DNA of 48,779 bases from Deltaproteobacteria bacterium (GTDB lineage: Bacteria; UBA10199; JADFYH01). The notes beneath the pieces were generated by a model that did not search any database, had not been told where the DNA came from, and saw nothing but the letters and a program-made list of their open reading frames with translations. Positions 18,667 to 22,855 of the stretch are shown here, in pieces; position 1 is the stretch's first letter; every line of letters starts with the position of its first letter. Made by a program: the position numbers and the translations under genes. The stretch spans positions 1 to 48,779 of the forward strand of contig JADFYH010000022.1 of the NCBI GenBank assembly GCA_015233135.1, written 5' to 3'.

Positions 18667-19431
18667 ATGTCCCAGAATATGAAAAATTATAAACTCATCC
18701 TCCAATACCATGGTGCCGGTTTTTGTGGCTGGCAGATGCAGAATGATAAGATTTCGATCCAAAGCGAGCTGATTCGAGCTCTCGAAAAAATTTTTCGACA
18801 AAAAATTACTGTGATTGCCTCAGGTCGCACGGATGCGGGAGTGCACGCTCTGGGGCAGGTGGTTTCATTCCGATGTGAAGGGGGGCTGACAAAAGATCGA
18901 TTAAAAGCGGCGATTAATTTTTATTTGGGGCCTGAAATTATTGTGAGCAAAATTGAAGAGGTAGATTTCGATTTTCACGCTCAAAAAGATGCCAAGCAAA
19001 AGCTGTATCGCTATCTCATTCTCAATCAGACACTTCCGCATCCTTTGCTTATCGACGCGACCTGGCATGTGCCTTTCAAAATAAATTGGAAGCTTGTTCA
19101 GGCAGGGCTGAAGCTTCTCGAGGGCAAAAAAGATTTTAGGGCCTTTCAGTCGGTGGGCACTCCGGTGAAATCCACTGTACGTACGCTTTTTTCAGCAAAG
19201 CTTAAAAAAATAAAAACTCCTTACGAAGTTTCTCTGTACGCCATCGAGTGGATTGCGGACGGTTTTCTCAAACAGATGGTTCGCAATATGGTGGGAACGC
19301 TGGTGGATGTGGGTCGAGGTAAAATCAGCCTGGACCAATTGGAAGAAGTACTCCGCTCTTGTGATCGTAAAAAAGCTGGCCCCGCTGCACCCGCTCAGGG
19401 CTTGTATTTAGTGAAAGTGGACTATTTCTAA
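18667..19431 (+). CDS. truA: tRNA pseudouridine(38-40) synthase TruA
   Basis: TruA converts uridines 38-40 of tRNA anticodon arms to pseudouridine in the cytoplasm. The catalytic aspartate is D56 in GRTDAGVHALGQVVSF. Other family segments are the opening LILQYHGAGFCGWQMQ and the closing FLKQMVRNMVGTLVDVGRGK. The start at 18667 gives 254 residues, the normal size; ATG 18679 would also work. No strong ribosome binding site is seen, and the short ORF ending two bases upstream may supply coupling. Its 3' end is overlapped for 107 bases by the convergent cytochrome gene. Confidence 0.95.
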   Translation: MSQNMKNYKLILQYHGAGFCGWQMQNDKISIQSELIRALEKIFRQKITVIASGRTDAGVHALGQVVSFRCEGGLTKDRLKAAINFYLGPEIIVSKIEEVDFDFHAQKDAKQKLYRYLILNQTLPHPLLIDATWHVPFKINWKLVQAGLKLLEGKKDFRAFQSVGTPVKSTVRTLFSAKLKKIKTPYEVSLYAIEWIADGFLKQMVRNMVGTLVDVGRGKISLDQLEEVLRSCDRKKAGPAAPAQGLYLVKVDYF

Positions 19432-19921
19432 ACCCATTTCTCCGCTCCTTGATTTTATTTCTCTCTTGAGGCCCGGGGTCGTCCTTGCTTTTCAAAAAAT
19501 CAGCAGGTCGATGAGCTGCATGGCATTGAAAACAATCGTTGCTCAGTTTATCAAAGCCTTCATAAATCTTTTTATCTTTCTTTTTGGAGAGTTTTTTCAG
19601 CTCTGTTACTTGACTTGACACATTGGCAGTATATTGCTTGTAGACCTCATCTTTATCTAATTTCTGCATTTCGTGAATGATATTCTCGATCTCTTTGATA
19701 GAAACATCAATAGTTTCCCAATCGGGCTGTTTTTCTTTCACTCTTAAGATTTCAAGTCCTGCCACCAAACTACCAAAACGATACATCGATTTTTTGAGAT
19801 CTTGGATGACCTGAGGATTTGAATCCAGTATAATTGCAGGTCCGGAGATAAGTGTGTGGCACAGAATTAGAGTTAAGGAAAATAGAGCGATTACAGTCAG
19901 AAATGTTTTTATTTTTTTCAT
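19325..19921 (-). CDS. Secreted monohaem c-type cytochrome, class II-like, with odd C-terminal tail
   Basis: The protein has an N-terminal signal or anchor segment (KTFLTVIALFSLTLILCHTL), then a helical region of about 100 residues, then one haem-binding motif CFQCH with C130, C133 and H134. A helical bundle followed by a late CxxCH is the layout of class II cytochromes c and c'-type proteins. It should be periplasmic and carry one covalent haem. In class II cytochromes the chain ends soon after the motif, but here about 60 polar residues follow and the last 35 or so lie antisense within truA. A lost stop codon or late frameshift is likely. The redox partner is unknown. Confidence 0.75.
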   Translation of the reverse strand: MKKIKTFLTVIALFSLTLILCHTLISGPAIILDSNPQVIQDLKKSMYRFGSLVAGLEILRVKEKQPDWETIDVSIKEIENIIHEMQKLDKDEVYKQYTANVSSQVTELKKLSKKKDKKIYEGFDKLSNDCFQCHAAHRPADFLKSKDDPGPQERNKIKERRNGFRNSPLSLNTSPERVQRGQLFYDHKSGVLLPIGPG

Positions 19922-19942: not shown

Positions 19943-20938
19943 TCAAGCCAACTGTCTAATCTTCACTTTAGCGTCTTCCAGAAGTTTTATGGACGCTCCA
20001 CTCATAGGATAGGCCAGGTTAAAAACCACTTCTGAAATTCCAGAATTAATAATCATTTTGGTACAAAGGAGGCAGGGGGAAAAAGTAGTGTAGAGCAAGG
20101 CATCTTTAATACTTACCCCATGATAGGCTGACTGAGTGATGGCATTTTCTTCAGCGTGTGAACAGTAGCAATCTTCCAAACCCGCCCCCGATTTTCCAAA
20201 ATTGTTGCAGCGCGGGCAGCCGCCTTCATTGCAATTGGCAACCCCACGAGGGGTGCCATTGTAACCCGTGGAAATAATGCGTTTATCTTTTACGATCACC
20301 GCAGCCACTTTTCGTTTGAGACAGTTTGAACGCATGGCCACACCTTGTGCGATATTCATGAAATAATCATCCCAGCTGGGGCGCACCTGATTCGCCGAAA
20401 GTTTGCGAACGATGTCTTTGAGTTGAGTGCGAAGTTCCTCAATCGTCTGATTGTTTTCCACTTCAATATCCGCCAAAGCCGCAGTCCCATCGAGTTGTTG
20501 GGCATGAGGGTCCTCGCTATTGGCTTCTTTGTCATCGAGGGTGATAAAATCTTCAAAATTTTTAGGATCTCCAATTCGTTGTCGGGCCAAAATTCTTTCA
20601 AATCTTTTTTGGGGGAGGGCTGCAACATGGATGAGGTGAAACCCCTCTTTGTCACGAAAAATTTCTACCTCTTTGGGATTACGAAACGAATCGATGACAT
20701 AGTTTTGATCGGGCTGAAGTTTTGACATAATGCGCATTGCCAAGACAGCTGGCCCATAGGCATGCCGGAGTTCGTTGCCAATTTTAATCATATTTTCTCG
20801 GCTGCTGGGGAGAGAACGAAGATGCAGTTCCTCGCGCAACACATCCGAAAGAGAATAAAATCGAAATCCGGCCTCCTGAAAGAGAGAAGCCACTTCGCCC
20901 TTTCCGGCGGCGTTTTTTCCGGTGAGTCCGATGATCAT
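19943..20938 (-). CDS. P-loop NTPase/kinase-like domain fused to deoxycytidylate (dCMP) deaminase
   Basis: Residues 1-170 form a nucleoside-monophosphate-kinase or dephospho-CoA-kinase-like domain with P-loop GKNAAGKG (7-14), SLSDVLREEL and a VIDSFRNPKEVE segment. Residues 190-331 are a zinc-dependent cytidine/dCMP deaminase domain with HAEENAI (zinc ligand H261, proton shuttle E263) and PCLLC (C289, C292). A Cys-rich insert (CNEGGCPRCNN, then CYC) may bind a second zinc. The deaminase would make dUMP from dCMP. The same two-domain layout occurs in yeast Dcd1 and in longer antiphage deaminases of the AvcD type. At 331 residues it is nearer Dcd1 in size. A housekeeping role is more likely, but defence is open. 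Confidence 0.88.
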   Translation of the reverse strand: MIIGLTGKNAAGKGEVASLFQEAGFRFYSLSDVLREELHLRSLPSSRENMIKIGNELRHAYGPAVLAMRIMSKLQPDQNYVIDSFRNPKEVEIFRDKEGFHLIHVAALPQKRFERILARQRIGDPKNFEDFITLDDKEANSEDPHAQQLDGTAALADIEVENNQTIEELRTQLKDIVRKLSANQVRPSWDDYFMNIAQGVAMRSNCLKRKVAAVIVKDKRIISTGYNGTPRGVANCNEGGCPRCNNFGKSGAGLEDCYCSHAEENAITQSAYHGVSIKDALLYTTFSPCLLCTKMIINSGISEVVFNLAYPMSGASIKLLEDAKVKIRQLA

Positions 20939-21265
20939 GCCAAGGCTCTAAACAAAAAAAAGAGAAGTGTCAAAATGATATATCAAATCAAGGGGCTATG
21001 TTTTCAGCATATTGATAAATATGATTTTTTTTAAAGATATCCACAATTGTGCCCAGTCTGTGAATAAACATGTACTGTAATATATGGTCACCCACAGTCT
21101 GGCAACATCTGTGGATAAGTTTCAACATTCAAATTTTAATCAAATTCAACGTGTTATACTAAAAAATCTTTCGTCTCGTAGCAAGTATTGACTCCCTAAA
21201 TCAGTCGTGCTAGCTGCCTCGAACATTTTTAAAAATGAATGTTCATTCAGAGAGGTTCTTTCAAT
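20939..21265. other. 327-bp divergent regulatory gap with AT-rich block and DnaA-box-like sites
   Basis: No ORF is supported between the divergent deaminase and argG genes. The segment 20970-21036 is strongly AT-rich. Three DnaA-box-like nonamers follow: ATATCCACA at 21037-21045 (one mismatch), TGTGAATAA at 21059-21067 (TTATTCACA on the other strand, fits TTWTNCACA) and TGTGGATAA at 21110-21118 (exact TTATCCACA on the other strand). CCACAG (21092-21097) and CTGTGG (21109-21114) form an inverted repeat. A TATACT -10-like word is at 21155-21160 and TTGACT at 21188-21193. An origin or a DnaA-responsive promoter are both possible. Confidence 0.45.
21234..21251 (+). promoter_or_regulatory. ARG-box-like operator upstream of argG
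   Basis: The palindrome TGAATGTTCATTCA at 21236-21249 has both half-sites of the ArgR consensus (TGAAT, four bases, ATTCA). A larger inverted GAACATT (21221-21227) / AATGTTC (21238-21244) overlaps it. It lies 16 bases before the argG start, next to the ribosome binding site, so a bound repressor would block transcription. ArgR itself is not in the window. Confidence 0.6.
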
Positions 21266-22465
21266 ATGTCTGATGTCAAAAAAGTGGTTCTTGCCTATTC
21301 AGGAGGTTTAGACACCTCCGTTATCATCCGTTGGCTCATCGAAAATTATCAATGTGAAGTCGTGGCTTTTGTGGCCGATCTTGGGCAAGGAGAAGAAGTG
21401 GAGCCTGTTCGAGAAAAGGCTTTAAAAACCGGTGCCTCAAAAGTTTATGTCGAAAATCTCAAAGAAGAATTTGCGCGGGATTTTATCTTTCCTATGCTTC
21501 GCGCTAATGCACTTTATGAGGGCGTTTATCTTTTAGGGACCTCGATTGCGCGTCCTTTGATTGTCAAAAAACAAATGGAAATTCTAGCGAAAGAAAATGC
21601 CCAGGCGATTTCGCATGGCGCGACTGGAAAAGGAAATGACCAGGTGCGCTTTGAACTCACTGCTTATGCGATGAAGCCGGATGTGAAGATTATTGCGCCT
21701 TGGCGTGAATGGGAATTCAAGTCGCGGACCGACCTCATTAATTATGCTGAGAAGCACGGAATTCCTGTTCCCGTCACCAAAGAAAAACCTTACAGTTCCG
21801 ATCGCAACCTGATGCATATTAGTTTTGAAGGCGGCATTTTAGAAGACCCTTGGGCCGAGCCGCCTGAGAGCATGTTTGTCCTCACTACTTCCCCTGAAAA
21901 GGCACCTGATAAAGCGATCTACATTGAAATTGACTACGAAAAAGGGAATCCCATTGCACTGAATGGTGAGAAGCTTTCTCCGGCCAAATTTTTGGAAAAA
22001 TTAAATCTCATTGCCGGTGAAAACGGAATTGGCCGAGTCGACATGGTCGAAAATCGTTTTGTGGGAATGAAAAGCCGCGGAGTGTATGAAACACCGGGCT
22101 GCACGGTTTTACATATTGCCCATCGGGCGATTGAATCGATTACGATGGATAGAGAGGTCTTGAAGATTCGCGACAACTTGATTCCTCAATATTCGGGAAT
22201 GGTCTACAACGGCTTCTGGTATGCCCCTGAGAGAGAATTGCTGCAAAATTTAATTGATGATGCCCAGGCAAAGGTGAGTGGTACAGTTCGTCTGAAGTTG
22301 TACAAAGGAAATTGTCTGGTGGTGGGTCGTAAATCCCCGCATTCTTTATTCTCCGAGGCCTTTGCCACCTTTGAAAAAGATACAGTTTATAATCAAAAAG
22401 ATGCCGAAGGGTTTATTAAATTGAATGCCTTAAGATTGAGGTTGAGGAAATTGTTGCAGAAATAA
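21266..22465 (+). CDS. argG: Argininosuccinate synthase
   Basis: ArgG joins citrulline and aspartate with ATP to make argininosuccinate, the penultimate step of arginine synthesis. The ATP-binding PP-loop is [16 protein letters not shown] near the N-terminus. Further family segments are [26 protein letters not shown] and [16 protein letters not shown]. The length is 399 residues, as usual. The start at 21266 is chosen because AGAGAGG lies nine bases upstream; an earlier in-frame ATG at 21239 lies inside the ARG-box-like palindrome. The ArgR-like site in front fits arginine repression. Confidence 0.97.
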
Positions 22466-22474
22466 GGAAAAAAA

Positions 22475-22855
22475 ATGGGTTATGTTCGAGCAAAAATACA
22501 ATTAAAAAATCCTCGAGAAACTAGTTTGCAAGCGCTTCAGGTGGAGTCGTTAGTGGATACAGGAGCTTTGATGCTCTGCATTCCTGAACATATTCGGATT
22601 CAATTGAAGTTGGAAGAACTGGAAAAACGTGAAGTGACTATTGCGGATGGAAGAAGGCAAGTGGTGCCTTATGTGGGGCCTGTACAGGTGAGTTTTCAAA
22701 ATAGAAATTGTTTTGTCGGTGCTTTGGTTTTGGGAGATGAAGTTTTATTGGGTGCCGTTCCTATGGAGGATATGGATCTGCTGATTTCTCCTGCGCATCA
22801 AGTTTTGATGGTGAATCCGGATAGCCCCAATTTGCCGCAGGCTTTGGTGAAGTGA
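22475..22855 (+). CDS. Small clan AA (retropepsin-like) aspartic protease-family protein
   Basis: The 126-residue protein carries LVDTGALMLCIPEHI, with D28 as the expected catalytic aspartate of a dimeric retropepsin-type fold. The flap and second-half segments (GRRQVVPYVGPVQVSFQNR, VLGDEVLLGAVPMEDMDLLI) and the closing HQVLMVNPDSPNLP are typical of the bacterial clan AA family. Its substrate is unknown. A GAAATAAGGAAAAAA tract before the ATG supplies the ribosome binding site. It follows argG by nine bases and is probably cotranscribed, though no functional link with arginine synthesis is evident. Confidence 0.85.
   Translation: MGYVRAKIQLKNPRETSLQALQVESLVDTGALMLCIPEHIRIQLKLEELEKREVTIADGRRQVVPYVGPVQVSFQNRNCFVGALVLGDEVLLGAVPMEDMDLLISPAHQVLMVNPDSPNLPQALVK

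Follow-up and report, generated by a model that had tools for sequence, protein, structure and literature searches.

AvcD is a dCMP/dCTP deaminase toxin that is inhibited by the AvcI RNA (PMC10511110). AvcD proteins comprise about 500–630 amino acids, are sporadic and plasmid-borne, and share their domain order with the protein analyzed here, which in contrast has 331 amino acids and is encoded by a core gene; both domains are distantly homologous to their AvcD counterparts. For the amino-terminal domain alone, the Sulfolobus protein SSO1041 (PDB 3lw7, 3h0k) has the fold in common and reaches 92 bits with the A2 profile, but it lacks a deaminase and binds AMP in the crystal, whereas the hypothetical protein PRK08356 (NF006226) spans the whole domain at 80–82 bits, far under its cut-off of 189 bits. 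Cmk (PF02224) would share the activity that we propose for this domain, although it belongs to a different P-loop family. For the carboxy-terminal domain, the ComEB-type dCMP deaminases (TIGR02571) are alike in fold and in the reaction predicted here but have no kinase domain, the score of our protein on this model being 108 bits against a cut-off of 219. Yeast Dcd1 has the layout of a P-loop region and a deaminase in common with it.

Architecture of the fusion protein and its deaminase half

We analyzed a 48,779-nucleotide stretch of a Deltaproteobacteria bacterium of the UBA10199 lineage (contig JADFYH010000022.1), termed the window, in which the minus-strand ORF at 19943–20938 (stop codon included) forms an open frame of 331 amino acids starting with ATG. 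A Pfam scan of this bifunctional-looking protein assigned AAA_17 and AAA_18 to residues 3–128 and dCMP_cyt_deam_1 (PF00383) to residues 188–306, the latter with 89.3 bits against a cut-off of 25. Accordingly, we delineated an amino-terminal P-loop domain with NMP-kinase fold, a predicted (d)CMP kinase (residues 1–180; 20399–20938, minus strand), and a carboxy-terminal dCMP deaminase domain (residues 184–331; 19946–20389, minus strand). The mean pLDDT of the AlphaFold2 model of the protein was 85. Full-length orthologues, mostly of 53–66% identity, occur throughout the class of the host, placing the fusion far beyond chance; together with the open frame and the Pfam domains in both halves they confirm that the P-loop/deaminase fusion noted in a preliminary description of this DNA is real.

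That description had also stated that the P-loop and all zinc-site residues are intact, which an alignment of 26 class members fully bears out. The Walker A motif GKNAAGKG (residues 7–14; 20897–20920, minus strand) has invariant G7, G12, K13 and G14 residues in these members, and K13 is kept in standalone copies of the domain as well. Its final position, a glycine in the window protein as also in adenylate kinases, is occupied by T or S in some relatives. Likewise, the catalytic zinc motifs H261-A-E263 (20150–20158, minus strand) and P288-C289-L-L-C292 (20063–20077, minus strand) showed invariant H261, E263, P288, C289 and C292 residues. We additionally identified a Cys-rich insert, C236..C241-P-R-C244...C257-Y-C259 (20162–20233, minus strand), absent from the preliminary description, whose five cysteines are invariant in the same 26 members and which probably forms a second, structural zinc site.

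For the carboxy-terminal domain, Foldseek retrieved the dCMP deaminase 2hvw with a TMt of 0.79 (E 1e-12). We regard the deaminase half as an ordinary enzyme of housekeeping metabolism, predicted to convert dCMP to dUMP. The host genome encodes three PF00383 proteins, of which one is TadA and a third is unrelated to the window protein, and no second protein resembling the window protein was present, making the fusion most likely the only dCMP deaminase of the cell. ThyA was absent in a search of the host genome, which contains ThyX and one dUTPase, so that the fusion is the predicted dUMP source for ThyX. The host ThyX (G000:C14:7243-8694; L031, L032) is a single 547-amino-acid frame with two Thy1 domains.

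As a lead only, we compared the deaminase domain with that of a provisional Dcd1 sequence, which is 52% identical and carries the same NCxxGGCPRC...CxC-HAEEN insert. The amino-terminal domain of Dcd1 presumably has a degenerate, unusable P-loop, and its similarity to the window domain was undetectable (2.6 bits). A separate observation concerns the viral-labelled contig L114 (657–1298), where an intact deaminase grouping with Acidobacteriota fusions follows an eroded amino-terminal domain that has lost its P-loop; it may represent host DNA with a wrong label, or else a copy in decay.

Distribution, gene context and comparison with AvcD

The fusion is present as a single copy in 43 of the 46 genomes of the class, and the other same-domain genomes recovered by that search yielded deaminase-side matches only. 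One class genome (G025, 95% complete) contains neither the fusion or its amino-terminal domain nor Cmk. Among GTDB-wide contigs we found at least 580 related stretches, the best 80 of which were nearly all full-length fusions of 53–63% identity, with record titles including Deltaproteobacteria, Omnitrophota, Elusimicrobia, Acidobacteria, Gemmatimonadaceae, Oligoflexia, Nitrospirae and DPANN archaea. The neighbors in the window are core genes, with secA, an argJ-like gene and flhA upstream, followed by truA and then by argG and a serA-like gene (names outside the Pfam scans were read off the translations by inspection). Based on its presence in 43 of 46 class genomes, the window gene is a core gene rather than an accessory or sporadic one. 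Two further ORFs lie close by: directly downstream of the deaminase gene, a secreted-looking ORF (19325–19921) with one CxxCH haem motif (CFQCH) and without a Pfam match shares about 107 bp with the oppositely oriented 3' end of truA, and right behind argG a small ORF (22475–22855) gave a sub-threshold retropepsin-like (gag-asp protease) match of 25.1 bits (cut-off 28.2).

The preliminary description had likened the layout to Dcd1 and AvcD and raised a nucleotide-depleting anti-phage function. The likeness to AvcD reflects true distant homology in both domains, but a shared function is not supported. On the curated anti-phage model NF041025 the window protein scored 151.7 bits, well below the cut-off of 400, whereas plasmid-borne anti-phage deaminases used as positive controls scored 488 and 499 bits; on the PADLOC dCTPase model PDLC02373 it reached 218 bits compared to 463–604 for true members. 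The latter model also matches standalone dCMP deaminases with up to 120 bits and could thus give false defence calls. In the phylogeny that the preliminary description had proposed as a check, the AvcD-type proteins formed their own supported clade apart from the fusion family in both deaminase-domain trees (100/99; 99/98), and the provisional Dcd1 deaminase was placed within the fusion clade by one tree and just outside it by the other. The amino-terminal domain of AvcD is a remote relative of the window domain (17–38 bits), and in the corresponding tree the AvcD rows adjoin the fusion rows on long branches; on this relationship a metabolic fusion like the window protein may have been the origin of AvcD. 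One class genome (G024; L216) encodes a separate, true AvcD-like gene besides its housekeeping fusion. Taken together, curated score, tree, class-wide single-copy distribution and a context of core genes led us to reject an AvcD-type identity, and the proposed nucleotide-depleting function is not supported.

The divergent intergenic region toward argG (20939–21265) measures 300 bp up to the longest argG ORF and 327 bp up to the methionine codon at 21266, with a GC content of 33%, so that its earlier depiction as a non-coding, AT-rich gap of 300 bp is accurate. We saw no sign in it of the AvcI-like small RNA for which it was said to leave room. An Rfam search of the gap gave no match, its similarity to AvcD upstream regions was not above chance, no similarity to other upstream regions of the class was found, and the distance to the upstream gene varied from overlap to more than 1 kb with a median of 81 nt (87 loci, some genomes counted twice). 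The predicted fold of the gap has a z-score of −2.77, but it coincides with an inverted repeat and is matched by an equally good fold of the antisense strand; within the gap no promoter was found on the deaminase gene's own strand. By these sequence and folding comparisons an AvcI-like RNA was not detected at this locus, in contrast to AvcD.

We further located three DnaA-box-like 9-mers in inverted arrangement within 82 bp of the gap (21037–21045, 21059–21067 and 21110–21118), one being an exact TTATCCACA and two having one mismatch. An origin of replication was considered for these clustered boxes between the deaminase gene and argG; there is no GC-skew switch and the gap is therefore probably not oriC. 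Perhaps the boxes reflect DnaA-responsive expression. Across the class, DnaA boxes are slightly enriched upstream (0.86 versus 0.22 per kb), an enrichment resting mostly on the window itself, which contributes three of the eight matches.

The amino-terminal domain and the distribution of Cmk

The structure prediction that had been suggested for the amino-terminal domain yielded an NMP-kinase fold, the best Foldseek match being the UPF0200/AdkA-like SSO1041 with AMP (3lw7; TMt 0.86, 23% identity). The fold does not fix the acceptor, and this best solved relative is AMP-bound. The Pfam scan of the window protein returned no Cmk (PF02224) and no Cytidylate_kin2 (PF13189) match, and PHROG 139, annotated as 'deoxynucleoside monophosphate kinase', matched the protein with 69 bits. 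Conserved residues of the domain comprise G4, G7, G12, K13, R47, R58, R86, R112, R115, R119 and E138.

The domain, ARRANGEMENTS, occurs alone, beside dCMP deaminases and fused to DHFR. Standalone copies with kinase motifs kept were found in five genomes (G018, G134, G277, G111 and G278), and such copies retain all eleven conserved residues listed above as well as Q147 and N162. In one of these genomes (G018) a genome search found no dCMP-deaminase relative, and in another of only 600 kb, listed as 100% complete (G278), the domain lies beside an amino-acid-kinase-fold gene resembling UMP kinase. Linkage to deoxypyrimidine genes recurs in different arrangements: the domain lies 34 bp upstream of a dCMP deaminase that is of a different type and has a gene of its own (G207), it forms fusions with deaminases that differ from the main family (G142, G241), and in an 800-kb genome (G137; L251, 4356–5393) it stands behind DHFR in a single protein whose gene has thyA and tmk to one side and a dCMP deaminase gene to the other. 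That the domain survives without a deaminase and is linked time and again to thymidylate genes and dCMP deaminases is better explained by an enzyme that would act on dCMP than by a regulatory module.

Our broad survey of Cmk took in 290 genomes, including 244 from outside the class, with the ten best candidates scored in each. A separate PF02224 search gave no real match in any of the 46 class genomes, where only scraps of 19–23 bits, mostly P-loop-sized, appeared, and was positive in 14 of 14 control genomes. Of the 46 class genomes, 45 encode Tmk and 42 encode Adk. Adk is generally found as one full-strength copy, three class genomes having an extra weak match, and thus no spare UMP-CMP kinase is visible. 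A Cmk hidden as Cytidylate_kin2 (PF13189) was also considered, and no convincing full-length match was seen in the 24 class genomes searched.

Outside the class, Cmk was detected in 216 of the 244 bacterial genomes of this unselected sample. CMP kinase being this close to universal, the lineages without Cmk pose a gap in nucleotide metabolism. The 28 Cmk-less outside genomes, and the prediction that matches to the amino-terminal domain would gather among them, were recorded before the domain profile was run. Strong matches to the domain (≥120 bits) were then obtained in 13 of these 28 genomes versus none of the 216 Cmk-bearing ones (Fisher p = 3e-14, a test that counts genomes as independent although both states are shared among related lineages). 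These 13 score 128–262 bits, are 88–100% complete and belong to 12 families. Weaker matches of 38–101 bits are found in genomes with and without Cmk and mostly represent another subfamily missing several of the conserved residues. The complementarity has exceptions on both sides. Of the 21 bacteria from other classes in which a sequence search found the fusion, three encode a full-length Cmk (G063, G068, G085) and two a partial or weak one (G061, G089), and several DPANN archaea combine the fusion with a CMP kinase of archaeal type. Conversely, 15 of the 28 Cmk-less genomes (including G056, G094 and G119) show no strong match to the domain, indicating that other solutions exist.

A predicted (d)CMP kinase at the dCTP/dTTP branch point

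The computed features of this family are the identity of its domains, catalytic motifs that are intact, the status of a single-copy core gene, the lack of Cmk and the complementarity of the amino-terminal domain with Cmk. On their basis we consider it probable that the window protein is a housekeeping enzyme of thymidylate supply, in which the carboxy-terminal domain would act as dCMP deaminase for ThyX and the amino-terminal domain as a (d)CMP kinase displacing Cmk, the two being fused at a branch point. NMP kinases are reversible, and dCMP for deamination can come from dCDP. The amino-terminal domain would accordingly interconvert dCDP delivered by ribonucleotide reductase and dCMP, the zinc-dependent deaminase would convert dCMP to dUMP, and ThyX would turn dUMP into dTMP, with the same amino-terminal domain also phosphorylating the CMP that comes back from the synthesis of RNA and lipids. 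At the dCDP–dCMP–dUMP junction the fusion could hand dCMP between the active sites or set the dCTP/dTTP split. Kinase activity of the amino-terminal domain, its specificity for CMP and dCMP, and channelling are what we infer here from the computed features. With slightly less confidence, though still tending to accept it, we propose that this domain is the first member of an unrecognised family of (d)CMP kinases replacing Cmk in UBA10199-type bacteria, Omnitrophota, Elusimicrobiota and others, including genome-reduced ones, with the fusion as its bifunctional branch-point form and the AvcD proteins as distant derivatives.

Alternatively, the protein could be a plain housekeeping dCMP deaminase whose amino-terminal domain serves as a regulatory or structural (d)NTP sensor, maybe as in yeast Dcd1, with the Cmk complementarity as a side effect of common descent. 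Regulation by dCTP and dTTP is a classical property of dCMP deaminases, the P-loop of Dcd1 is presumably degenerate, and the intact deaminase behind the eroded domain on contig L114 indicates that the deaminase can exist without its partner. However, a deaminase regulator would not persist alone with its kinase residues and no linked deaminase, nor does this explanation sit well with 13 of 28 versus 0 of 216 genomes, and we regard it as rather unlikely. An active nucleotide kinase for another acceptor, be it dNMPs generally, AMP or a cofactor, with CMP kinase activity supplied from elsewhere, would agree with the fold match to an AMP-bound protein and with the PHROG 139 annotation. Adk and Tmk are present, however, so that AMP- and dTMP-type acceptors are already served and the missing activity is that of a CMP kinase, and the recurrent linkage to dCMP deaminases points to dCMP; this possibility therefore appears improbable to us. 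Least credible, to the point of being nearly negligible, is an AvcD-type anti-phage deaminase silenced by a small RNA from the gap at 20939–21265. The shared domain order, the distant homology visible in the PADLOC score of 218 bits and the strong fold of the AT-rich gap (z −2.77) speak for it, and they are outweighed by an NF041025 score of 152 bits where true AvcD proteins reach 488–499, a PADLOC score below the 463–604 bits of true members, the separate AvcD clade, the presence in 43 of 46 genomes, an unconserved gap folding equally well in antisense, and the additional AvcD-like gene of G024.

Returning to the (d)CMP kinase proposal, our literature search found no description of the fusion as a kinase, nor of a loss of Cmk in these lineages. 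We see the novelty in the amino-terminal half, a probable, unrecognised Cmk replacement joined to the enzyme that would follow it at a branch point. A single domain occurring where Cmk is missing offers a direct and testable answer to the missing CMP kinase. If true, it would close an enzyme gap in several uncultured phyla as well as in a 600-kb genome, and would describe a fusion acting where dCTP and dTTP supply part. The cross-match of the PADLOC dCTPase model to this core metabolic protein calls for caution with defence-gene models, and the remote kinship of the two fusions suggests that the defence protein AvcD may have been built from a metabolic fusion.
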